NCBI RefSeq assembly: GCF_022458985.1
Contig: NC_061783.1
Coordinates: 12,593,913 to 12,657,912 of the forward strand
Reading direction: 5' to 3'
Source: Mugil cephalus
Taxonomy: Eukaryota > Chordata > Actinopteri > Mugiliformes > Mugilidae
DNA: 64,000 bases
Shown: positions 1,305-64,000 of the stretch, piece after piece
How the letters are laid out: each line of letters begins with the position of its first letter
Numbering within the stretch: position 1 is the first letter of the stretch
Made by a program: the position numbers and the translations under genes
The notes under the pieces: model-generated
What the model was told of the DNA's origin: nothing
Database searches by the model: none
What the model saw: only the letters and a program-made list of their open reading frames with translations

Positions 1305-1376
1305 TAGCAGAGGATGGTTTCGATCCATCGACCTCTGGGTTATGGGCCCAGCACGCTTCCGCTGCGCCACTCTGCT
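1305..1376 (-). tRNA. Initiator tRNA-Met (anticodon CAT)
   Basis: The 72-nt gene reads on the minus strand from 1376 to 1305 and matches the vertebrate initiator methionine tRNA essentially base for base. The acceptor stem pairs AGCAGAG with CTCTGCT. The anticodon loop is CCCATAA (CAT complementary to 1342-1344), closed by CTGGG/CCCAG, which contains the three G:C pairs diagnostic of initiators. The T-loop is ATCGAAA rather than the elongator TTCGANN, another initiator hallmark. There is no intron. The A box (TGGCGCAGCGG) and B box (GGATCGAAACC) are intact. A TTTT tract about 29 nt downstream could terminate Pol III. The gene lies about 850 bp past the necab1 stop codon in the same orientation, probably just beyond that gene's poly(A) site. 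Confidence 0.97.
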
Positions 1377-35133: not shown

Positions 35134-43931
<8,798 letters not shown>

Positions 43932-48966: not shown

Positions 48967-49170
48967 CAGTGGGGGAAATAAGTATTTGATCCCCTGCTGA
49001 ATTTGTAAGTTTTCCCACTTCCATAGAAATGATCAGACTCTGGTTTTTATGGTCGTTTACTGGTTATGGGTATAGACAGAATATCAATCGAAAATGCATA
49101 AAAAACACACAATCTAAAAGTTATAAATTGTTATGTATTTTATTAAGGGAAATAAGTATTTGATCCCCAA
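48967..49170 (+). repeat. Left terminal inverted repeat of the Tc1 element
   Basis: 204 bp beginning CAGTGGGGGAAATAAG and ending GATCCCCAA. Outer and inner direct repeats of GGAAATAAGTATTTGATC lie near 48973 and 49147. Inverted partner at 50369-50572. Confidence 0.95.
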
Positions 49171-49182
49171 GCACAATACAAG

Positions 49183-50256
<1,074 letters not shown>

Positions 50257-50368
50257 TTATATACATGACGAGTTAAGATCAGGAGTATTGGTAATTAGTT
50301 GACTGAGCACAGCTGTGTGCCACATGCGCACCAGCCAATCTGTAGGAGCCTGAATTCTAAGTGAATTG

Positions 50369-50572
50369 TTGGGGATCAAATACTTATTTCCCTTAATAAA
50401 ATACATAACAATTTATAACTTTTAGATTGTGTGTTTTTTATGCATTTTCGATTGATATTCTGTCTATACCCATAACTAGTAAACAACCATAAAAACCAGA
50501 GTCTGATCATTTCTATGGAAGTGGGCAAACTTACAAATTCAGCAGGGGATCAAATACTTATTTCCCCCACTG
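50369..50572 (-). repeat. Right terminal inverted repeat of the Tc1 element
   Basis: Reverse complement of the left repeat apart from three substitutions: G for T, T for C and A for G, read in left-repeat orientation. Ends CCCCCACTG next to TA. Confidence 0.95.
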
Positions 50573-50574
50573 TA

Positions 50575-53500
50575 TCTTCTGATTAATGTTTTGGAGAACA
50601 CATATCGTGTTATTATTACTTTATTTATTTAGTTCAGTTAGAATCTGTAATTAGGATGATTTGATTGTGGTTGTGGACGTGGTGCTGAACGTAGCCACTG
50701 ACGATCTGCGTGACACCAGTGAAATGTGAGCCCCGCCCAATTATCTGTCTATGGTAGAAAGAACATTACTGAATATTTGTGCCTTGTAAGAGAAGATCTA
50801 CGCAAACACACAATGATGATAACTGTGAATTCAAAAGCTTAATTCATGAGTCGGATTAACAAATTATTTAACTTATTATTATAATAAGTGGAAAACCTTT
50901 GAGGACAGGGAGTAGGCTACTTCTCACTGAACTGAATTACTAAGTATTAAATCTGCACGGTTTAACAGTGGAGCTGGAGTCCGTATACTATGTTTTGAAA
51001 ACTGACCCACGTTTACCAGTGGATTCTGAAGTTACATTTCTATAATTCATGAACGTTTTAGTTACGATTACGTATGATTACACTTGAGCCGGAGACCACA
51101 TATTAAAAAAAATAAATAAATAAAAGGTTGTAATTCCTACACCTTTCCTTTGATCTGGATGTGGATATCCTTAAGATAAACCTTAGAGTCTGGACTTTAA
51201 GTCGACGTTATGCATTATGTAACTGTAACTTGGACGTGTATTTAATAAGATGATAAGATTTGATAAACAGATATAATAATAAAAGTGTCCACTGAGAAGC
51301 TTGATCTCACTGTGTATCATAATTTTATTTAGTAATCTAAAATACTTGCAAAAATAACCGATGACTGAAGCTTTAACATAAATGTTTAAGGGGCTCCAAT
51401 CTGTGCCCTTAAAATATAATGAAGTAGAGAGTATATAGAGAGTGCACTTGAATGCAGTGCTTGAGTAAATACTTATCCAGAGTCCACCGCTCTTTTAGTT
51501 TTATAGTTTATGGCTCAGGATATCTTACGTAATCCTGAGTCAATACACGTCCTTGTTTGCCTTCACTACTTTCTGTCAGCCTCGTTATTCTAAGTGGGAA
51601 AGCGACTCAAACTGTGTGGTATCGGTGGAAACTTCTCGCTTCGGATGTTTTCGCGGAATCGTGTTAAAAAGCTTCTGCTGCTGATTAAAATTTCAGCTTG
51701 TCACTATGTTTTTTTTTTTTTTTGAGATACCACACGTTTTATAAAAATCCTTTTTTTTCCCCCCACATATCCCAAATCCTGGCAAGAGTCTATAAATACA
51801 ACCTGTCTTCATCCCTAACCCTTTGAGAGCGAAGGAAATGTTCCTGCTCAGAAGGTTTCCCCTTATCTTGCAAAATAACTGTCAGTACTCAAATATGCAG
51901 CAGCAGCAGCAGCCCTGTACGTCCAGAAATAATACTGGCTTCTGGGGCAGTTTGTCACAGCGATTTTGAAGTGAAGTAGTGATGGATGTGGTGCTGGTGA
52001 TATACTGTAGATTGGAGCACCACTTAGGCTTGCCCTTGCCGTGCCTGTGACAAGCTATCTGTGCACAGGGAGGCCGGTGTCTGAACGTCTAACCACGTGC
52101 GTGCACATCTAATCCTCATCTGCTCACATCCCAAATTCTACAGAAACACAAAAACCCTGAAGGAGCAGAACCGAAGACCGTCAGTCAAACGGCGATGTTG
52201 TTGTTGCTTGGCCTGTTGCTTGGCTGACTCCCCCGTTGCTCCCTTCGCCGCTCTTCTCCGGGCTCGGGTCAGATCTGTGTCAGATTCATCATCGTCTCAC
52301 CTCAAAGGACAAAGCCTCGTCCCAGAGCCTCCCTGCCGGCGCGCGGAGACGTCTGCGCAAAACCAAGAACATTCGTGTTGACGGGCCTCGACTAAAAGTT
52401 CTCACTGAGGGATACGCTTTCGGAGGCTGAGCTCCAAAAATACATCTGTGAGGTTGTCATTGCTTGACGGCTCGGAGGGTGACTAACAAAAAAAAAAAAA
52501 AAAGAAAAAAAAAAGAAAGGAGTGAGATGATGTTGGATTGTGTCCATGCAGACTTCCAGAGGGAAAACTCATGGTGCGGGTGTTTGTTGGATTTGTGGAG
52601 GAGGGAAACGTTGATAGGAATCTGGCAGGAGGATGGTGCTCAGGGGGGGAAGGAGGGGGGGATAGATCACGTGACCAGTTTCTTGGCCCAAACAGCTGTT
52701 GCCTCCACCTGTACCATCTGTGACCTGCTGCTGTTCTCCTCCTCTCCGTCTCACTGCTCGCTCTGCTGCGCTATCACAGCCCAGTGGCGGTTTGGACCTC
52801 TGGCAGCGTTTTGCTGTCTAGGCTCTACAGCTGTTACACAAACAGGTGCTTTAATATTATCTTACTGACATTAAAAAATCTATTATTGCAGTACAGGGGT
52901 AAAAATCATAAGCTCAACTAGTGAGCGATGTTTAAATGGATGAATGAATGCATTATTTATCATTAATTCCTTTTGTTCACCATCAAGAAATGTCACTATG
53001 AGTTCATGTGACTCATTTAATGAAGGTAAATGCATTCATTTGTATCGTTCTGTGGACCAAACTGCCATGTATCCAAATCAGAAACCAAAGTTTTCTCTGG
53101 TTTTTGTCTTTTCTTATGAACCTACTGAATCAAATATGTAGAAAAAAAGTTTGGTACTGATGTGACATAAGGGTTATGATGCTAAATAAGCAAATACATA
53201 ATAATGCCACAATTACTTTAATTCCCAAAGTGTAAAAAGATCACGTCCAGGCATTGTTCATCAAGCTCATAAAACGATAAGTACATTTTTGATTAAGTTA
53301 AAAGCAAATGAAAGCCCTTGAAGTGCACATGTTTTAGGCTTTAGGTGCAGCAGATTTGTCCCACTTGTCCTTGTTATTCAGGAGCCAGGAATGCGGGGGG
53401 ACAGACGAGGCCTTTTCTGATGATGTTTGCTTCCAGGGAAGAGTCACATCTGTGTCCTCTCCTAAGGTCAGCTCTTCCTCGCTGTGTGCGGGGCCGTGAT

Positions 53501-54398
53501 GTAAATACTGTGCTGTGCGCTCATCGAACAAACACGAAAACACACTCAGATCTGAGGGGGGCATCACAGGGAGGAGCGGGGCAGACGTTTTGACAGTGCG
53601 CTGGCAGAGGAGGGAGATTTAATCTGGTTTGAGGGGCAACTGGAGCCTACAGAGACCGGTGAAATGTCGATTGTATTAAACCGCTACAGGAAATGTTTCA
53701 CTGACCTCCTTTACACATCAGATACTTTATATTCTAGAGCAAGAAACCACAGAATTAGATTTGCTAGCACTAGGTTACTGCCAGTATATTCAATAACACT
53801 ACTTACTGGATCAACACAAGGTTTAATGATAGACTTGATATTTATTAATAATTGACAAGTCTCATTTCCCTGGCCATGCTTTCACATACATGAGCCAGCG
53901 CACATGCACACAAACACATTTCTCCTACTAACACACTGAAAACAGCCCCTCGTCTATAATGACTGAACACCAAAAATTATATTAATATCTTTTATGACAC
54001 CAGCGTCCGATCTGTCCTTTGGTTCATTTGTGGGACCACGAATTCTTTTTGAAAACGAGAGTATGGTATTACACTGAGGAGCAGCAGTTGCAGACGCAAG
54101 TTTCATCATGACTTTATATTTGGCCTTTCTGTTCTAATTTGTTAGATGTTTTCTTGTGACTCATTTTGCTTTTTATTAGACAGTTAAATCATGAATCCTT
54201 GACTATCACAGCGTTTTCAGCATTTGCAATTTAAATCCGTACTGCCCTCTAGCGGCCTAATATCCGTACTACACACAGTGCTGCTCCAACGCCCATGTTT
54301 ATTGTATTAGTGCTAATACAATATGATTAAGTTGTAACCACTGGTCACCTGGATAAAAAAAAAAAACAATACCACAGAAGCCTTAATCTACATGTGAA
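50575..54398. other. Gene-poor spacer between the Tc1 element and the tdp2 block
   Basis: Mostly AT-rich. A GC-richer patch at 52180-52830 has several overlapping open frames without recognisable domains, plus an A-rich tract at 52489-52515. I assign no gene there. A candidate terminal exon at 53334-53607 on the minus strand is listed separately. Confidence 0.5.
53334..53607 (-). other. Unidentified open frame resembling a C-terminal exon
   Basis: On the minus strand a pyrimidine tract and CTGCCAG acceptor-like site (ending about 53608) precedes an open frame that runs to TAA at 53334. It encodes protein-like sequence with pieces such as SVFSCLFDERTAQYLHHG, SEEELTLGEDTDVTLPWK and SWLLNNKDKWDK. 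Composition is not low-complexity. I do not recognise the family. No upstream partner exon is evident before tdp2, whose poly(A) signal is only about 800 bp away. It may be a relic, an orphan exon or chance. Confidence 0.25.
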
Positions 54399-54404
54399 TT
54401 TATT
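54399..54404 (-). terminator. Candidate poly(A) signal of tdp2 copy 1
   Basis: AATAAA on the minus strand, about 390 nt past the stop codon at 54790. It lies outside the duplicated block, so the second tdp2 copy does not have it. Confidence 0.45.
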
Positions 54405-54789
54405 CATATAATGAAACAAAAATTAAAATGATAAAGATTTTCAGTCTGATGAATTCAGACAGAAGTTCGGAAAAAAATTTAAAATGTTGAAAGTCTGATG
54501 AACAAAATCATGTAACATGAGTGAAAAAAAAATGTGTTTTTCCACATTTCAGCCGCAGATAAAGAACAGATATAAACCAGGTGATAAAACAATTTTTTAT
54601 AAAAAATAAATCAAAGCATGTGTAACACACAGCCAACCTTGGATGAGATCAGAGCGTCTGTCATTGAGAAGGTGTTAGGGTGGTCTGATCAGCTGTGCAC
54701 CAGGGCAATAAAAACATGCAGAACTAACAAGTCCAGCTGATCTACAACAAAGGCTTTGACTGGCTTGGTTCTGCTTGTTTTGTGTATTT

Positions 54790-57522
54790 CTAGCCAACAT
54801 AGAAGGCACAAAAGATTCCCCAATGGTCACTAGTGTATCGGCCACAGTCCAGCTTCTCCAGCCCCACCAAAGCCATGCGGTCAGGGGCCAAACGTGGGAC
54901 TCCATCCTTGGTCGCTGGTCGTAGGTAGACCCGGTCGAAGCGGAATCGACTGATGTATCTAACGGACTTGTTGCTGTTGGCTTTGGTGTCCCATGTGTAG
55001 CGGCAGTGCTCCCGTTTGCCGGTTCGCTCCCACACATCAGAGACAGTGGAGGGAAGGCCCACCTTGGCCACCTGAGAGGGGAGAGGAGGAAAAATTATTA
55101 AAGAGGTACCCGCAACGGGCTGCAGCTTAACTGGAAAAAAACAGTAACTCACCTCAGGGTCTCTCAGGTTGGTGTCCCCTCCAAACAGAACGGTGACGTC
55201 ATCAGGTGCATCTTTCATCCTCTGCATCACCACACGCAGCTGTTTCATCCGCTCCTCTGCGTGGCCCTTACAGCTCTCAAAGTGGGACGTCATCAAACAC
55301 AGCTTTTGGTCTTTGAATGTCACCTGATTTTAACAGAGGGAAGCCCCGCCTCAGTAATAATCCCTTCAGAGCGTCACCTTAAGCTCACGACGTGGATGAC
55401 TCTACACAAACCTGAGCTACAAGCAGATTTCTCATCATCTGAGTGGTGGGGTAAGTTACGATCTCGCTCCCTTCGAATTTGACCCGGGACTTCTTGAGCA
55501 TCATCCCCGTGAAGTAACCTTCTTCACCGCCTGCTCAGCACAAGAGGAGAGAGGTTTTAGACACGGGGGTCTAAACAGAGCAGCAGCCCTCAGAAAAAAG
55601 GTTTTATCTTGACACACAACCACCAATGGTAGGTTGGTGGTGACGTTTACCTCCGTTGAATTGAACACTTAAGTTTTGTTCACCAACTAAAACTAAAATA
55701 AGGTTGTCAAAATAATAGGAACGTGCCTCAGTGCAACACAGTACAGTTCAACAGTACTACAAACCACAGCCCACACAATGAAAACACAATTTAATCAACA
55801 ACTTTCTGTTATTTAAAAAATGGTGAATTGTGTTCATGAAGCTTAGATTTAGTGCATAACTGTGCAATAAAAATAAATAAAATAAGATTATTTGTATACA
55901 GCGCCACTGAAAAGTGTTGTTTTTGATGCAGCAATAAAAGGATTAGTGTAAATCTACTCAATTTTATGTGGTAATCTTAAAAAACAATCACAATAGATAA
56001 GAATATAATATTTAAATTATTTTAAGTAGGACAGAACAATAGCTGCACCCTGACAGAGCAGCTGAACACAACTCGGTCATAATCGTTTCATTGTTTACTG
56101 TTAGACATACTGTACCTTCAATGATCAGGTAGCTGACCGCCCGTTTCTTCAAGTACTGGACGTAGGGTGGAATGAGCTCCTGTAGGAACACAATGTCCGG
56201 GTCGTATCTGCAGAGAAAGAAAAATCACAACAAATATTATCTGTCTTTCATTTGCCTAATAATCTATTAGATATGTGTGCAACCACTGGGAAAACAAAGG
56301 GTGAAAGAAGTGTGCTTACAAGACTAAGTAGGAATACAGGCCTCTGGCTCGCTCTCCCAGGTTGTCTGTATCAAGTCCGTCCACGTTCCAGGTGATCAGG
56401 GACAGTTTACCGTCGTCTTTCCCTGAGGGTTTCTGCGCGGTGCTGGGACTGCCTTTAGTCAAATCTATGCTGGGAGTTTATAACAGGGGGTTACTTCATT
56501 TAAAACAGGCAAATGTTTGTTTGTGGTGAATCTTATCATGCACATTAACTTGGGATATTGTCGGGGATGAAAGACAGTGGACTCACCAGTCTTCTTGAGG
56601 TTTTGTCTCAGTATTTGATCTCTTTGGTACAGGGCTGGAGTCTTTCTCGGAGGAATCTTCCACATCAAATACTTTCTCCATATCTGCCTCAAAGAAGGAG
56701 TTCAAAGCCCTCTGAAGAAAAAAGAAAAAAAGAAAGAAAGAGTTACATTGAGCTAATCAGTGAAATATCTGCAGCTGTGTTGAGCTGGACTGTAAAACTG
56801 TAGATGGACCAGCAGCTACAGCAGCAGTGTGAGAGATTTATTATATAAACAGTCACTTATTAATAACTAAAATGTCAACGAAATACTGTTCGAATTTAAC
56901 AACAACCACCTTCTAATTAGCAAAACAATAATAAAAGATCATTCAAATTTTATATGGACAATAACAAATTGTATCTGTGTCCGAGAAATCACTTTCAGCT
57001 AAGTTACCCTTTACAAATACGACATTCCACCTCTCAAGGAAGTGTCTTATCCAAAATCCAAATCACATGACCTGCTCCAAGGTGTGTTCTTTCTCCTATT
57101 TCTTAGTTATTTAATATAAAGTAGTGTGTATAAAGAGTGTGGATTTATCACATGCCAACAGTGTTACTCCAATATATGTGTAAATAACTATCAATTTCAG
57201 TTTACTCAATTGTATATATAATACTGAGAAGAACCTTTGCGTAAAAATGCCATGTGTTGACTTGTTATAGGCGGCCATGTTGATTTTAAGCTTGAAAACA
57301 GCCAAAATGTCAACTATGACACCTGTCAACTATGTTAAACTCAAAACTCATTATATATTCTCTCAGCTACAGTACCTCCATCTCCCATTCATTTTCAGCC
57401 AGGTAGCGCTGAGCCACGGCGGCGTCACTCCCCACTACCGTAGCAAACTCTTCGCACAGACGACGTCTGTTTTCTTCCACATTAGAAACTGATGGTTTGT
57501 CCGAGTCGGATGTAGAAGCCAT
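54790..57522 (-). CDS. tdp2: TDP2 copy 1, tyrosyl-DNA phosphodiesterase 2 (7 exons, 361 aa)
   Basis: Coding exons in transcript order are 57522-57376, 56711-56587, 56469-56320, 56207-56116, 55530-55412, 55323-55153 and 55071-54790. They total 1086 nt in frame from MASTSDSDK to a TAG stop; human TDP2 has 362 aa. The enzyme hydrolyses 5'-phosphotyrosyl bonds and so removes trapped topoisomerase II from DNA ends in the nucleus. A UBA-like helix bundle covers about residues 20-65 (LCEEFATVV, AENEWEMERALNSFFE). An acidic/Ser-rich linker follows, then the Mg-dependent EEP nuclease domain. Catalytic motifs are complete: TWN (117-119), LQE (149-151), GDTN (260-263) and SDHW (350-353, His351). The exon 2/3 join yields Cys91 only if the CAG acceptor next to CATAGATTTG is used; the nearer AG would create a stop. 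It is head to head with acot13 copy 1. Confidence 0.96.
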
Positions 57523-58442
57523 GTTTTTGTTCACTTTTTATTTACAGGCCTAACCCTTTAAAATGACTCCACAGTCACCTGAGCTGAAAACAAACATTAG
57601 CGCATGTTTCCGAGGTGTATCAATAAAAGGCTTCCGGGTAGAAAAGAGTTGGATAGAAAAGTGTACCCAAAACAGAGAAAAATATATATTTCATTTTGTA
57701 ATACAGTTTAACTAAAATGTGTATGCTGCCTACAGTAGATCTCAAAGCACGGGGAAATGTTTAATTATTAAATAATAAAATAACAACAGTCAAGAAAATA
57801 ATAATAATAATGATAATAATAATAATAATAATAATAGCAATTGCACCAATCTCTATATATTAGTATTATTTTGGAGGTGTTTAACTTTTCTGATGGTCGA
57901 ATTTAATTTTGGAATGTATGTACAGAAATCTAATTTAACTTTTATTATATACAAAGTTGTACATCCATAAATGTAAATGGTCTGAAAGGAAACCCAATAT
58001 CCACCAATTCATTTTAAAACATTAAAAGAACTATTAAATCAAAAAGCTACCCGGGCGATTAGTATCTAAAAAACCTTAAAATCGTCATTTTTGAATTTAT
58101 GTACCTCTTTTTATTTTCAATATTATATTCTATTCTTTTTTTTGTTGTTGTTCTAATAATTGTATTATATGCCTTAACATTTTTAAATATGCATCTTAAT
58201 AATTATATGCATCTTATAATAATAAAAAATAATGAAGAAACCCCAAAATAAATGGTCGAATGTGCAGTTTGACCACTTATTTTGTGTTTTCTTTAACTGC
58301 ACCATGAAACAATATTTTGCGCGGACGCTTTATCTGACGCAATAGTTTCCGGTGTGGAAAGTCAAAGAACGAAGCGGTGTAGTTGAGACGATCATAACAG
58401 AGAATCTTTGACCCGAAGTTTGACATTGGTAGAATATATAAT
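57523..58442. promoter_or_regulatory. Shared divergent promoter region, copy 1
   Basis: About 0.9 kb separates the tdp2 start from the acot13 exon 1 remnant, and the middle is AT-rich. An ETS-type motif CTTCCGG (57631-57637) lies close to the tdp2 start, and TTTCCGGTG (about 58347) lies near the acot13 side. The same motifs recur in copy 2. A short (AAT)n tract is at 57799-57837. Bidirectional use is inferred from gene orientation and spacing. Confidence 0.45.
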
Positions 58443-58810
58443 AAAGCAGATAATGAGAGCGATGGTAGACAACCCGGGCTTCGACAGAGTCCTGAGCAAG
58501 GTAAAGATGCACATTCTTGATCTCGAGTGGAGTTTAACTTGCTTGTCCTTTGAAATGCACAAACTGGACGGCCTCCGTGTCTTTGCTGTGTCACAACTGT
58601 CTGCACAGCTTTCTGCTTTCCTCAGGTGGACGTTGTGTCAGCCACCCCGGGTAAGGTGGTGTGTGGGATGCGGGTGGAAGAGGAGCACACTAAACGGGGA
58701 GGGACGCTGCACGGCGGGCTGACAGCCACCCTGGTTGATGTCATCTCCACCATGGCCATCATGTACAGTGAGAGGGGAGCACCAGGAGTCAGTGTGGACA
58801 TGAACATAAC
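58443..58810 (+). pseudogene. acot13: ACOT13 copy 1, truncated and mutated
   Basis: The exon 1 remnant ends at 58500 (donor gtaaag) and exon 2 is 58626-58810. Compared with copy 2, 35 bp covering the start ATG and first codons are deleted between 58442 and 58443. The first remaining in-frame ATG is 58453 (MRAMVDNPGF), which would remove 12 residues. In exon 2 the codon for the catalytic Asn (Asn50 in human THEM2/ACOT13, Asn51 in copy 2) is AAA, Lys, instead of AAC. Exon 3 is absent because the duplication broke inside intron 2. The frame stops immediately after exon 2 (ACG TGA). The other three nucleotide changes in exon 2 relative to copy 2 are silent. A working thioesterase is not expected from this copy alone. 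Confidence 0.9.
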
Positions 58811-59245
58811 GTGAGTTCAGGAGCCGTGTGAGCCTTCAGAGATCTTACTTTTATTTTGACCTATGAGCCTCTGAATTGAGCAAATCAAGTATTCATAATT
58901 TCATATCTAATTAACTGTAATGTGAATTGTGTGGAATGAACCTGTAGAAGAGATTTACTAAATAAAATGGACCAAACTGAAACTGAACACCAACTACAAT
59001 AGTTGCACTCATAGTCTTCTGATTTGCTTGAAATTAATTATGTTAATTCTAATTTGAGGTGTTGAATATCATTAAAGTTTCTCATGGTTTGACCTTGGAT
59101 GAGATCAGAGCGTCTGTCATTGAGAAGGTGTTAGGGTGGTCTGATCAACTGTGCACCAGGACAATAAAAACATGCAGAACTAACAAGTCCAGCTGATCTA
59201 CAACAAAGGCTTTGACTGGCTTGGTTCTGCTTGTTTTGTGTATTT

Positions 59246-61684
59246 CTAGCCAACAGAGAAGCTACAATAGATTCCCCAATGGTCACTAGTGTATCGGCCA
59301 CAGTCCAGCTTCTCCATCCCCACCAAAGCCATGTGGTCAGGGGCCAAACGTGGGACTCCATCCTTGGTCGCTGGTCGTAGGTAGACCCGGTCGAAGCGAC
59401 ATCGACTGATGTATGTAACGGACTTGTTGCTGTTGGCTTTGGTGTCCCATGTGTAGCGGCAGTGCTCCTGTTTGCCGAGTCGCTCCCACACATCAGAGAC
59501 AGTGGAGGGAAGGCCCACCTTGGCCACCTGAGAGGTGAGAGGAGGAAAAATTATTAAAGAGGTACCCACAACGGGCTGCAGCTTAACTGGAAAAAAACAG
59601 TAACTCACCTCAGGGTCTCTCAGGTTGGTGTCCCCTCCAAACAGAACGGCGACGTCATCAGGTGCATCTTTCATCCTCTGCATCACCACACGCAGCTGTT
59701 TCATCCGCTCCTCTGCGTGGCCCCTACAGCTCTCAAAGTGGGACGTCATCAAACACAGCTTCTGGTCTTTGAACGTCACCTGATTTTAACAGAGGGAAGC
59801 CCCGCCTCAGTAATAATCCCTTCAGAGCGTCACCTTAAGCTCACGACGTGGATGACTCTACACAAACCTGAGTTACAAGCAGATTTCTCATCATCTGAGT
59901 GGTGGGGTAAGTTACGATCTCGCTCCCTTCGAATTTGACGCGGGACTTCTTGAGCATCATCCCCGTGAAGTAACCTTCTTCACCGCCTGCTCAGCACAAG
60001 AGGAGAGACAACAACTTTCTGTTATTTATAAAATGGTGAATAACGTTCATGAAGCTTAGATCTAAGGCAGGAATGTTAAACTAGGACGCATTTGTGTTTG
60101 AAGTGAAATGCAATGCATTTTCACAAGCGTACCTAATGAACTGGCGATTGTATTTACACAGCCGCTAATCTGCTTTTAGTATAAATAAAATAAGATTTGT
60201 TGAAAACGAGCATTTAACTGAGATACAGCGCCACTGAAAAGTGTTGCTTTTGATCCTTTTGATGCAGCAATGAAAGGATTTAGTGTAAATCTACTCAATT
60301 TTATGTGGTAATCTTTTAAAAAAAATCACAATAGATAAGAATATAATATTTAAATTCTTTTAAGTAGGACAGAACAATAGCTGCACCCTGACAGAGCAGC
60401 TGAACACAACTCGATCATAATCGCTACATTGTTTACACCTGTTAGACATACTGTACCTTCAATGATCAGGTAGCTGACCGCCCGTTTCTTCAAGTACTGG
60501 ACGTAGGGTGGAATGAGCTCCTGTAGGAACACAATGTCAGGGGTGTATCTGCAGTGAAAGAAAAATCACAACAAATATTATCTGTCTTTCATTTGCCTAA
60601 TAATCTATTAGATATGTGTGCAACCACTGGGAAAACAAAGGGTGAAAGAAGTGTGCTTACAAGACTAAGTAGGAACACAGGCCTCTGGCTCGCTCTCCGA
60701 GGTTGTCTGTATCAAGTCCGTCCACGTTCCAGGTGATCAGGGACAGTTTCCCGTCGTCTTCCTCTGAGGGTTTCTGCGCGGTGCTGGGACTGCCTTTAGT
60801 CAAATCTATGCTGGGAGTTTATAACAGGGGGTCATTTAAAACAGGCAAATGTTTGTTTGTGGTGAATCTTATCAAGCACATTTACTTGGGATATTGCCGG
60901 GGATGAAAGACAGTGGACTCACCAGTCTTCTTGAGGTTTTGTCTCAGTCTTTATTCTCTTTGGTGCAGGGCCGGAGTCTGTCTCAGGGGAATCTTCCACA
61001 TCAAATACTTTCTCCATATCTGCCTCAAAGAAGGAGTTCAAAGCCCTCTGAAGAAAAAAGAAAAAAAGAAAGAAAGAGTTATATTGAGCTAATCAGTGAA
61101 ATAAGGTGCAGCTGTGTTGAGCTGGACTGTAAAACTGTAGATGGACCAGCAGCTACAGCAGCAGTGTGAGAGATTTATTATGTAAACAGTCACTTATTAA
61201 TAACTAAAACGTCAACGAAATACCGTTAACAACAACCACCTTCTAATTAGCTAAACAATAATAAAAGATCATTCAAATTTTATATGGACAATAACAAATT
61301 GTATCTGTATCATATGATTTATCACATGCCAACAGTGTTACTCCAATATATGCGTAAATAACTTTACTAAATTGTATATACAATACTGAGAAGAACCTTT
61401 GCGTAAAAATGCCATGTGTTGACTTGTTATAGGCGGCCATGTTGATTTTAGGCTTGAAAACAGCCAAAATGTCAACTATGACACCTGTCAACTATGTTAA
61501 ACTGAAAACTCATTATATATTCTCCCAGCTACAGTACCTCCATCTCCCATTCATTTTCAGCCAGGTAGCACTGAGCTACGGCGGTGTCACTCCCCGCTAC
61601 CGTAGCAAACTCTTCGCACAGACGACGTCTGTTTTCTTCCACATTAGAAACTGATGGTTTGTCCGAGTCGGATGTAGAAGCCAT
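59246..61684 (-). CDS. tdp2: TDP2 copy 2, tyrosyl-DNA phosphodiesterase 2 (7 exons, 361 aa)
   Basis: Coding exons in transcript order are 61684-61538, 61047-60923, 60810-60661, 60548-60457, 59986-59868, 59779-59609 and 59527-59246. Each has the same length as in copy 1, and the whole is open to a TAG stop. TWN, LQE, GDTN and SDHW are all intact, so the nuclease should be competent. It differs from copy 1 at 25 residues by my count, nine of them in the last exon (for example R-T-G-K-R to R-L-G-K-Q, and the C-terminus FCAFYVG to YCSFSVG). The linker has PKRIKTE where copy 1 has PKRSNTE, giving a possible IKTE sumoylation consensus in this copy only. The gene keeps only 154 bp of its original 3' flank and must end in former acot13 intron sequence. 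AATAAA on the minus strand at 58850-58855 is a candidate signal. Confidence 0.95.
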
Positions 61685-62587
61685 GTTTATGTTCACTTTT
61701 TATTTACAGGCCTAACCCTTTAAAATGACTCCATAGTCATTTGAGCTGAAAACAAACATTAGCGCATGTTTCCGCGGTGTATCCATAAAAGGCTTCCGGG
61801 TAGAAAAGAGTTGGATAGAAAAGTGTACCCAAAACAGAGAAAAATATATATTTAATTTTGTAATACAGTTTAACTAAAATGTGTATGCTGCCTACAGATC
61901 TCAAAGCACGGGGTTATGTTTAATTATTAAAATAGAAAATTAAAATAATAACAGTCAAGAAAATAACAATAATACCAATTGCAACAATTTTTATACATTA
62001 CTGTTATTTTGGAGGTGTTTACCTTTTCTGGTGGTCGAATTTAATTTTGGAATGTATGTACAGAAATCAAATTTAACTTTTATTATATGGAAAGTTGTAC
62101 ATCCATGAATGTAAATGGACTGAAAGGAAACCCAATATCCACCAATTCATTTTAAAACATTAAAAGAACTATTAAATCAAAAAGCTACCTGGGCGATTAG
62201 TATCTAACAGACCTTAAAATCGTCATATTTGAATTTATGTACCTCTTTTTATTTTTAATATTATATTCTATTCTTTTTTGTTGTTGTTCTAACAATTGTA
62301 TTATATGCCTTAATATGTCTTAACATTTTTAAATATGCATCTTAATAATTATATGCATCTTATAATAATAAAACTAATAAAGAAAACACAAAATAAATGG
62401 TCGAACGTGCATTTATTTAGTGTTTTCTTTAACTGCACCATGAAACAATATTTCGCCCGGACGATTTATCTGACGCAACAGTTTCCGGTGTGGAAAGTCA
62501 AAGAACGAAGCGGTGTAGTTGAGACGATCATAACAGAGAATCTTTGACCCGAAGTTTGACATTGGTAGAATATATAATCCTAAAAGC
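61685..62587. promoter_or_regulatory. Shared divergent promoter region, copy 2
   Basis: Counterpart of 57523-58442, about 0.9 kb between the tdp2 copy 2 ATG and the acot13 ATG. The CTTCCGG (about 61793) and TTTCCGGTG (about 62481) motifs are retained, while the AAT repeat is reduced. No TATA box is obvious for either gene. Confidence 0.45.
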
Positions 62588-63720
62588 ATGGCTTCTCTGA
62601 ATTTGAACGCGTTAAAGCAGATAATGAGAGCGATGGTAGACAACCCGGGCTTCGACAGAGTCCTGAGCAAGGTAAAGATGCACATTCTTGATCTCGAGTG
62701 GAGTTAAACTTGCTTGTCCTTTGCAAGGCACAAACTGGACGGCCTCCGTGTCGTTGCTGTGTCACAACTGTCTGCACAGCTTTCTGCTTTCCTCAGGTGG
62801 ACGTTGTGTCAGCCACCCCGGGTAAGGTGGTGTGTGGGATGCGGGTGGAAGAGGAGCACACTAACCGGGGAGGGACGCTGCACGGCGGGCTGACAGCCAC
62901 CCTGGTCGATGTCATCTCCACCATGGCCATCATGTACAGCGAGAGGGGAGCACCAGGAGTCAGTGTGGATATGAACATAACGTGAGTTCAGGAGCCGTGT
63001 GAGCCTTCAGAGATCTTACTTTTACCTATGAACCTCTGAATTGAGCAAATCAAGTATTCATAATTTCATATCTAATTAACTGTAATGTGAATTGTGTGGA
63101 ATGAACCTGTAGAAGAGATTTGCTAAAAAATGGACCAAACCAAAGCTGAACACTAACTACAATAGTTGCATTCATAGTCTTATTATGTTAATTCTAATTT
63201 GAGGTGTTGAATATCATTAAAGTTTCTCATGGTTTAATATTTAACATTTTCCATTTTAGCTACGTTTATATACATGCTGAAGTCTGCAAAACTCTGAAGC
63301 TATTTACATTATTTTATATAAAACATATGTTTGCTGGCTTAAAAGTGGTCGAATGTGAACAAAAAGAGATTCACTGCTTTCCTTAAACTCTCTGCATTCA
63401 CGTTCTCATTCAGCTTGATACCATCTTGTCATTTACAGAGAGCAACTGATAAATACCACTAATTATATCTTTCACTATGCTCAGTGACCTTTAGCACAGT
63501 CAGGCTGAAAATGACCTTCTTTAACTCCTCGTGACCTGAAAGTGTGACTTAATCTGACAGGTACATGAACGCTGCGAAGATGGGAGAGGACGTACTCATC
63601 ACTGCTCAGGTCCTGAAGCAAGGACGGTCACTGGCGTTTGCCACCGTAGACCTCACCAACAAGGCAACGGGGAAGATCATTGCTCAAGGGAGACACACCA
63701 AACACCTTGGCAGCAGCTAA
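62588..63720 (+). CDS. acot13: ACOT13 (THEM2), acyl-CoA thioesterase 13 (3 exons, 142 aa)
   Basis: Coding exons are 62588-62671, 62797-62981 and 63561-63720 (84+185+160 nt), in frame from MASLNLNAL to TAA; human ACOT13 is 140 aa. It is a single hotdog-fold thioesterase of the PaaI/4HBT type that forms tetramers and hydrolyses medium- and long-chain acyl-CoA, associated with mitochondria and cytosol. Visible family features are EEEHTN (Asn51, human Asn50), HGGLTATLVD (57-66, Asp66 equals human Asp65), Ser84 (human Ser83) in GVSVDMNIT, and the C-terminal LTNKATGKIIAQGRHTKHLG block. It is the only complete acot13 in the window. Intron 2 contains the sequence at which the upstream duplication broke (63235). 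Confidence 0.97.
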
Positions 63721-63974
63721 ACTTCTCTTCTTCTCACAATTGTCATCCTCTACTGAGTGAAAATGTAAAGCAGCGTGTTTGTACAGTTTGCTAAAACACA
63801 TTTTGTAAATGTAGAAGTTGTAACAGGGGTAGGCACCACAACTCCATAACCGTCCTCATTGCTGGTTACTTAATGACTCGTGTTGTTAAGGCTGTTACAT
63901 ATTTATCATGAACAGAGACTGATTTAAGGTCAGAGGCCTTATCCAACTACTGTATCAATGATTTATGCAAATGC

Positions 63975-63980
63975 AATAAA
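63975..63980 (+). terminator. Probable acot13 poly(A) signal
   Basis: AATAAA in GCAATAAACAAATGG, 255 nt past the acot13 stop. The window ends 20 bases later, so the cleavage site and any downstream element cannot be checked. Confidence 0.55.
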
Positions 63981-64000
63981 CAAATGGACAAAGAGTTCTG

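Follow-up and report, generated by a model that had tools for sequence, protein, structure and literature searches.

Structure of the tdp2–acot13 repeat

We describe a stretch of 64,000 nucleotides of the Mugil cephalus genome (positions 12593913-12657912 of contig C14, NC_061783.1; hereafter the window, whose numbering is used throughout), in which tdp2 and part of its head-to-head neighbour acot13 are present twice, in two adjoining direct copies. The evidence is the assembled sequence, 634.8 Mb in 24 contigs. An earlier note on this DNA had proposed a tandem duplication with a break in acot13 intron 2, and our analysis supports it: its gene calls hold, with tdp2 on the minus and acot13 on the plus strand, and a self-BLAST of 52001-64000 exactly reproduced its direct repeat ends (54636-59090 and 59092-63235). 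The claim that a tdp2/acot13 gene pair was duplicated holds for tdp2, which is present twice as a whole, and was overstated for acot13, of which exons 1-2 alone are repeated. The features are as follows:

54636-59090, plus strand: copy 1 of the tandem unit, comprising the tdp2 coding region, the shared intergenic region, acot13 exons 1-2 and part of intron 2 (self-BLAST, alignment)
59092-63235, plus strand: copy 2 of the tandem unit (self-BLAST, alignment)
54790-57522, minus strand: tdp2 copy 1, intact, 361 amino acids, seven coding exons at 57376-57522, 56587-56711, 56320-56469, 56116-56207, 55412-55530, 55153-55323 and 54790-55071 (splice-anchored model)
59246-61684, minus strand: tdp2 copy 2, intact, 361 amino acids, seven coding exons at 61538-61684, 60923-61047, 60661-60810, 60457-60548, 59868-59986, 59609-59779 and 59246-59527 (splice-anchored model)
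62588-63720, plus strand: intact acot13 (copy 2), 142 amino acids, exons 62588-62671 and 62797-62981 and exon 3, present once, which runs from 63561 to the stop codon (model, alignment with 4ord_A)
58453-58810, plus strand: orphan acot13 fragment, made of an exon 1 remnant from a downstream in-frame ATG (58453-58500) and exon 2 (58626-58810) (model)
58442-58443, plus strand: point at which copy 1 lacks 35 bp that copy 2 has at 62578-62612, a deletion through which acot13 loses its start and initial codons (alignment)
55692-55863, no strand assigned: dispersed-repeat member lying within intron 4 of tdp2 copy 1 (genome search)

In each unit tdp2 lies on the minus strand and acot13 exons 1-2 on the plus strand, with the intergenic region between them. 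Self-BLAST resolved the copies into four colinear direct blocks with 97.6, 94.5, 91.4 and 93.7% identity, and an affine realignment, from which the coding, non-coding and 500-base-bin figures below were also taken, gave 134 differences in 3945 aligned bases, with 25 gaps (nine of at least 15 bases). Two colinear direct copies with one novel junction are thus present, as in a tandem segmental duplication. No further copy of the unit was found in the window or the 30 kb fetched around it, and these 94 kb hold no N bases.

An initial MAFFT alignment contained two apparently hypervariable stretches (20.5% and 35% in neighbouring 200-column bins, and 14.5% in a third). We attribute them mostly to misplaced gaps, because the affine alignment puts the 500-base bins at 1.4-5.5%. 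Length differences of 132 and 24 bp between the copies occur at 56982-57141, and a larger one, of 243 bp, at 55553. An insertion in copy 1 was considered for the latter and rejected, as the dispersed repeat at 55692-55863, searched from the copy 1 side, crosses the edge into the shared part. We favour a deletion in copy 2, because the shared sequence resumes inside this repeat, which has at least 39 other matches of 74-88% identity on many contigs (best 40 of 652 candidates scored).

Neither 361-codon tdp2 frame contains an internal stop in the splice-anchored models, and the splice anchors are kept in both. The closest solved relatives of the window genes are 4fpv/4f1h for tdp2 and 4ord for acot13, all presumably from zebrafish. 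Both tdp2 copies carry UBA_4 (UBA-like, PF14555) and Exo_endo_phos (PF03372) domains above the Pfam cut-offs, and in both the motifs TWN, LQE, GDTN and SDHW stand at 117, 149, 260 and 349; the catalytic residues of human TDP2 are given as N120, E152, D262 and H351 in the available text of PMC11369425. One translated search of the 24 contigs returned 14 tdp2 exon matches, all in the window, and none elsewhere; it scored the best candidates only, so that a distant paralogue such as tdp2a may escape it.

The acot13 of copy 2 is predicted to encode a full hotdog thioesterase with active-site residues N51, G58, D66 and S84, and 141 of its 142 residues (1-141) align with PDB chain 4ord_A. Asn50 is among the active-site residues of 3F5O, according to the part of PMC13114782 that was available. 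Copy 1 has a lysine where human Asn50 aligns, lacks exon 3 and does not constitute a full hotdog thioesterase. At the 35-bp difference the copy 2 state is taken as ancestral, because the alignment of copy 2 with 4ord_A starts at residue 1. Exon 3 was found once in the genome, and the translated search, with best candidates scored, placed all five acot13 exon matches in the window and none elsewhere in the 24 contigs. In principle, a transcript of acot13 copy 1 might be spliced onto the single exon 3, with the frame kept from the internal methionine.

The junction and how it may have formed

59091, plus strand: junction base G, either an inserted base or an A-to-G change at an AA microhomology (comparison of parents and junction)

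The junction reads CTCATGGTTT, then G, then ACCTTGGATG. The 401 bases around it have one full match in the 634.8-Mb assembly, the other two matches being the parent ends within the window. The G at 59091 is unlike its counterparts at the outer ends of the repeat, where an A precedes copy 1 (54635) and another A follows copy 2 (63236). With the parents written as TTT-AATATT (right) and GCCA-ACCTTGG (left), the junction is TTT-G-ACCTTGG. The parents can also be split as TTT-AA-TATT and GCC-AA-CCTTGG, with a 2-bp AA common to both, and joining them on this AA, with a single later A-to-G substitution, would yield the sequence seen just as an inserted G does, so that the letters alone do not decide. 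The earlier note's description, one extra G and no obvious microhomology, is one reading and not a secure one, as a 2-bp overlap fits too.

We do not use the AA overlap as evidence of mechanism, since at least two shared bases are expected by chance at ~17% of random joins (200,000 draws of position pairs in the window). Homologous exchange between repeats at the two ends was also considered and set aside: a blastn-short comparison of ±600 bases around both ends yielded nothing in direct orientation with E up to 1, and only two short inverted matches, of 12 and 15 bases. Non-allelic homologous recombination is thus not favoured. End joining, as the earlier note had suggested, is plausible, as is a short-homology template switch; with the AA overlap at its chance level of ~17% and no longer direct homology at the ends, we infer this class of event rather than read it off the junction, and a single junction cannot separate an inserted G from a 2-bp microhomology with a later substitution.

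Divergence of the two copies

The copies differ as much in coding as in non-coding sequence, with substitutions at 38 of 1086 tdp2 coding bases and at 92 of 2626 non-coding bases. The two tdp2 proteins differ at 25 of 361 residues, and synonymous (Ks, 0.038) and non-synonymous (Ka, 0.035) divergence are equal within error (ratio 0.92; Fisher p = 0.84). With the non-coding rate taken as neutral, a ratio of 0.3 would predict 8.8 non-synonymous differences, compared to the 29 seen (Poisson P 6.5e-8). The orphan acot13 fragment differs by three silent changes and one amino-acid change, which is that of the active-site Asn. We read the copies as paralogues from a young, lineage-specific, true tandem duplication, with a probability of roughly 0.88, because coding divergence equals non-coding divergence, the orphan acot13 half is disabled and there is no gap. 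An assembly artefact is unlikely.

With zebrafish 4fpv_A as the outgroup, the 15 differing residues in the aligned catalytic region comprise nine derived in copy 1, two derived in copy 2 and four that stay ambiguous; this polarisation covered the aligned region, and thus leaves out the 10 differing residues before position 107. Identity to 4fpv_A is 179/252 for copy 1 and 186/252 for copy 2. Among the 11 polarised sites, 5ino_A, which we take to be human, agrees with copy 1 at 107 and 339, contradicting the zebrafish call; at residue 230 human agrees with copy 2, which fits the ancestral state that the zebrafish call denies. Of the 144 sites invariant between zebrafish and human, 20 are altered in copy 1 and 18 in copy 2, the two extra ones being residues 136 and 285. 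Taken together, these residue comparisons suggest that tdp2 copy 1 may be evolving faster.

The strongest competitor of a true duplication is a false heterotype duplication, in which two divergent haplotypes of one tdp2/acot13 locus were set side by side by the assembler. According to the available text of PMC9516828, such errors made up 4-16% of the sequence in three older assemblies, some of them adjacent on one scaffold, and in a highly polymorphic fish two haplotypes might differ by ~3.4% substitutions plus indels, although that is a high value. That text names halved read depth, gaps separating the copies, discordant read pairs and single-copy k-mers as signs of a false duplication; in our sequence, no gap lies between the copies or in their vicinity. 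With Ka/Ks at 0.92 and 25 of the 361 residues altered, the tdp2 pair is also unlike alleles of a conserved repair gene, which should show far fewer amino-acid changes. In addition, the disabling changes sit in the half-gene copy, and a mere second haplotype is unlikely to have lost the start codon and also exchanged an active-site residue in precisely that half-gene which has no exon 3. We therefore consider juxtaposed haplotypes very unlikely. The earlier note had also preferred a true duplication, and that preference is supported, partly on better evidence than its own: its argument from a break inside a gene does not discriminate, since partial-gene false duplications are described in PMC9516828, as far as its available text goes.

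Several points weigh against a true duplication followed by relaxed constraint. The view is based on assembled sequence, and alternate haplotigs or unplaced scaffolds would not show among the 24 contigs. The 9:2 asymmetry between the tdp2 copies is not significant (p = 0.065), with 4 of 15 sites ambiguous, and identity to 5ino_A (144/251 for copy 1, 145/251 for copy 2) is almost free of asymmetry. Finally, one non-synonymous change out of four in the acot13 fragment (P = 0.047 under neutrality) is unlike free decay alone. Relaxed constraint and a damaged truncated gene, as expected of paralogues, are both seen, and the 3:1 ratio of silent to replacement changes in the fragment opposes them.

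Corrected non-coding divergence is 3.6%, which corresponds to 1.8-9.0 million years if the neutral rate, as assumed here, lies between 2e-9 and 1e-8 per site per year; this age follows from divergence alone. The youth would be only apparent if a much older duplication had been kept alike by gene conversion, for which direct tandem copies are good substrates. One 500-base bin, 55136-55635, is indeed lower than the others (6/417, 1.4%), but the remaining eight of the nine bins range from 2.6 to 5.5%, and divergence is alike in coding and in non-coding sequence, which makes such a history highly improbable.

Whether both tdp2 copies still contribute to TDP2 activity is a separate question. One copy, probably copy 1, may drift neutrally and add nothing, and we rate this at a little under an even chance. 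Coding divergence at the non-coding level and the fall of 9 of the 11 zebrafish-polarised changes in copy 1 speak for it, and an intact frame says little about so young a pair: with 19-30 changes, a frame would stay free of stops with a probability of ~0.3-0.5, which makes the absence of stops uninformative. Conversely, the catalytic motifs and splice anchors are preserved in both copies, and no indel interrupts the 1086 coding bases, although a single neutral branch should have gathered ~3.8 (P = 0.02). This expectation, based on the 17 gaps that the MAFFT alignment has in 2433 non-coding bases once its two aberrant patches are set aside, is generous, as non-coding indels include low-complexity tracts. 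A more elaborate scenario, which we regard as unlikely, is that copy 1, with its indel-free frame and the pair's protein changing at the neutral rate, diverges as a second working TDP2, while the orphan acot13 exons may splice across tdp2 copy 2 to the single exon 3, yielding a shortened ACOT13 without the active-site Asn that would be able to join and weaken the tetramer.

The history that best explains these data begins with a direct tandem duplication of ~4.5 kb in an ancestor of the fish, with one end past the tdp2 stop codon and the other in acot13 intron 2, where the repeat ends are seen to lie. The two ends, which lack long homology, may have been joined by end joining or by a short-homology template switch. 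The product is the arrangement present today, a second complete tdp2 with its own copy of the intergenic region, possibly active as a promoter, and an orphan 5′ half of acot13 facing the 3′ end of tdp2 copy 2. The orphan half has lost its start codon and active-site Asn, both missing from the assembled copy, and the tdp2 pair has gained protein changes at the non-coding rate with neither frame broken. Constraint was most likely relaxed once the duplication had occurred, perhaps chiefly on copy 1.

Flanking sequence, gene order and known systems

The native 3′ flank of tdp2 was lost by copy 2, and the intergenic region is retained by both copies; this may have regulatory consequences for the tdp2 and acot13 copies. 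The first AATAAA motifs past the two tdp2 stop codons are as follows:

54399-54404, minus strand: AATAAA 391 bases beyond the stop of tdp2 copy 1, in the native 3′ flank missing from copy 2 (sequence scan)
58850-58855, minus strand: AATAAA 396 bases beyond the stop of tdp2 copy 2, antisense in acot13 copy 1 intron 2 (sequence scan)

Nearer variant signals are TATAAA at 54596 (copy 1) and AGTAAA at 58954 (copy 2). The acot13 copy 1 and tdp2 copy 2 genes stand tail to tail. At 58961, a 2-bp difference creates a plus-strand AATAAA in acot13 copy 1 intron 2 that is absent from copy 2, and it might cut transcripts of the orphan fragment short.

Elsewhere in the window, a Tc1/mariner element of the Sleeping Beauty-like group occupies 48967-50572, with inverted ends of 207 bp (98.6% identity), TA on both flanks and a stop-free transposase frame of 357 codons (49183-50256, minus strand). 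It looks recent and lies ~4 kb to the left of the duplication, and no link to the breakpoint was seen. A stop-free frame of 387 codons with a VTT domain lies at 35152-36315 (plus strand), and a tRNA gene (58 bits) at 1305-1376 (minus strand). To the right of acot13, geminin matches (PF07412; L021 6180-7254, plus strand) give the order tdp2-acot13-gmnn.

This tdp2–acot13 duplication was not described in the literature searched, which covered titles and the openings of abstracts. The locus shows, in a young case and with base precision, how a single breakpoint can convert two head-to-head genes into a duplicated gene and a half-gene, and a neighbouring tdp2 pair differing at 25 residues could serve the study of relaxed constraint in a topoisomerase-2 repair enzyme; views on the origin of duplications are unchanged by it.

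The human TDP2-ACOT13 neighbourhood is single copy, whereas here it is duplicated. Its gene order is otherwise alike, with tdp2, acot13 and geminin in the same order here; the available text of PMC11369425 places human ACOT13, C6orf62 and GMNN upstream of TDP2. Zebrafish resembles Mugil cephalus in having two TDP2-type genes with UBA and EEP domains in one genome, tdp2a and tdp2b, which the same partial text locates on chromosomes 16 and 19 and ascribes to the teleost whole-genome duplication. In contrast, the copies described here adjoin and are ~3.5% different, and one translated search, which a distant paralogue could escape, found no further one. The false heterotype duplications of PMC9516828, as its available text presents them, share adjacent diverged copies that may include a partial gene, and differ from this locus, which has no gap and a coding divergence too high for alleles. 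The closest likeness is to few-kb tandem segmental duplications with end-joined or microhomology junctions, with which the repeat shares its direct, colinear copies, flush ends and lack of long breakpoint homology; we see no structural difference from this class, to which it adds one more case. It is an ordinary kind of gene duplication in which the divergence of the tdp2 proteins is unusually fast.

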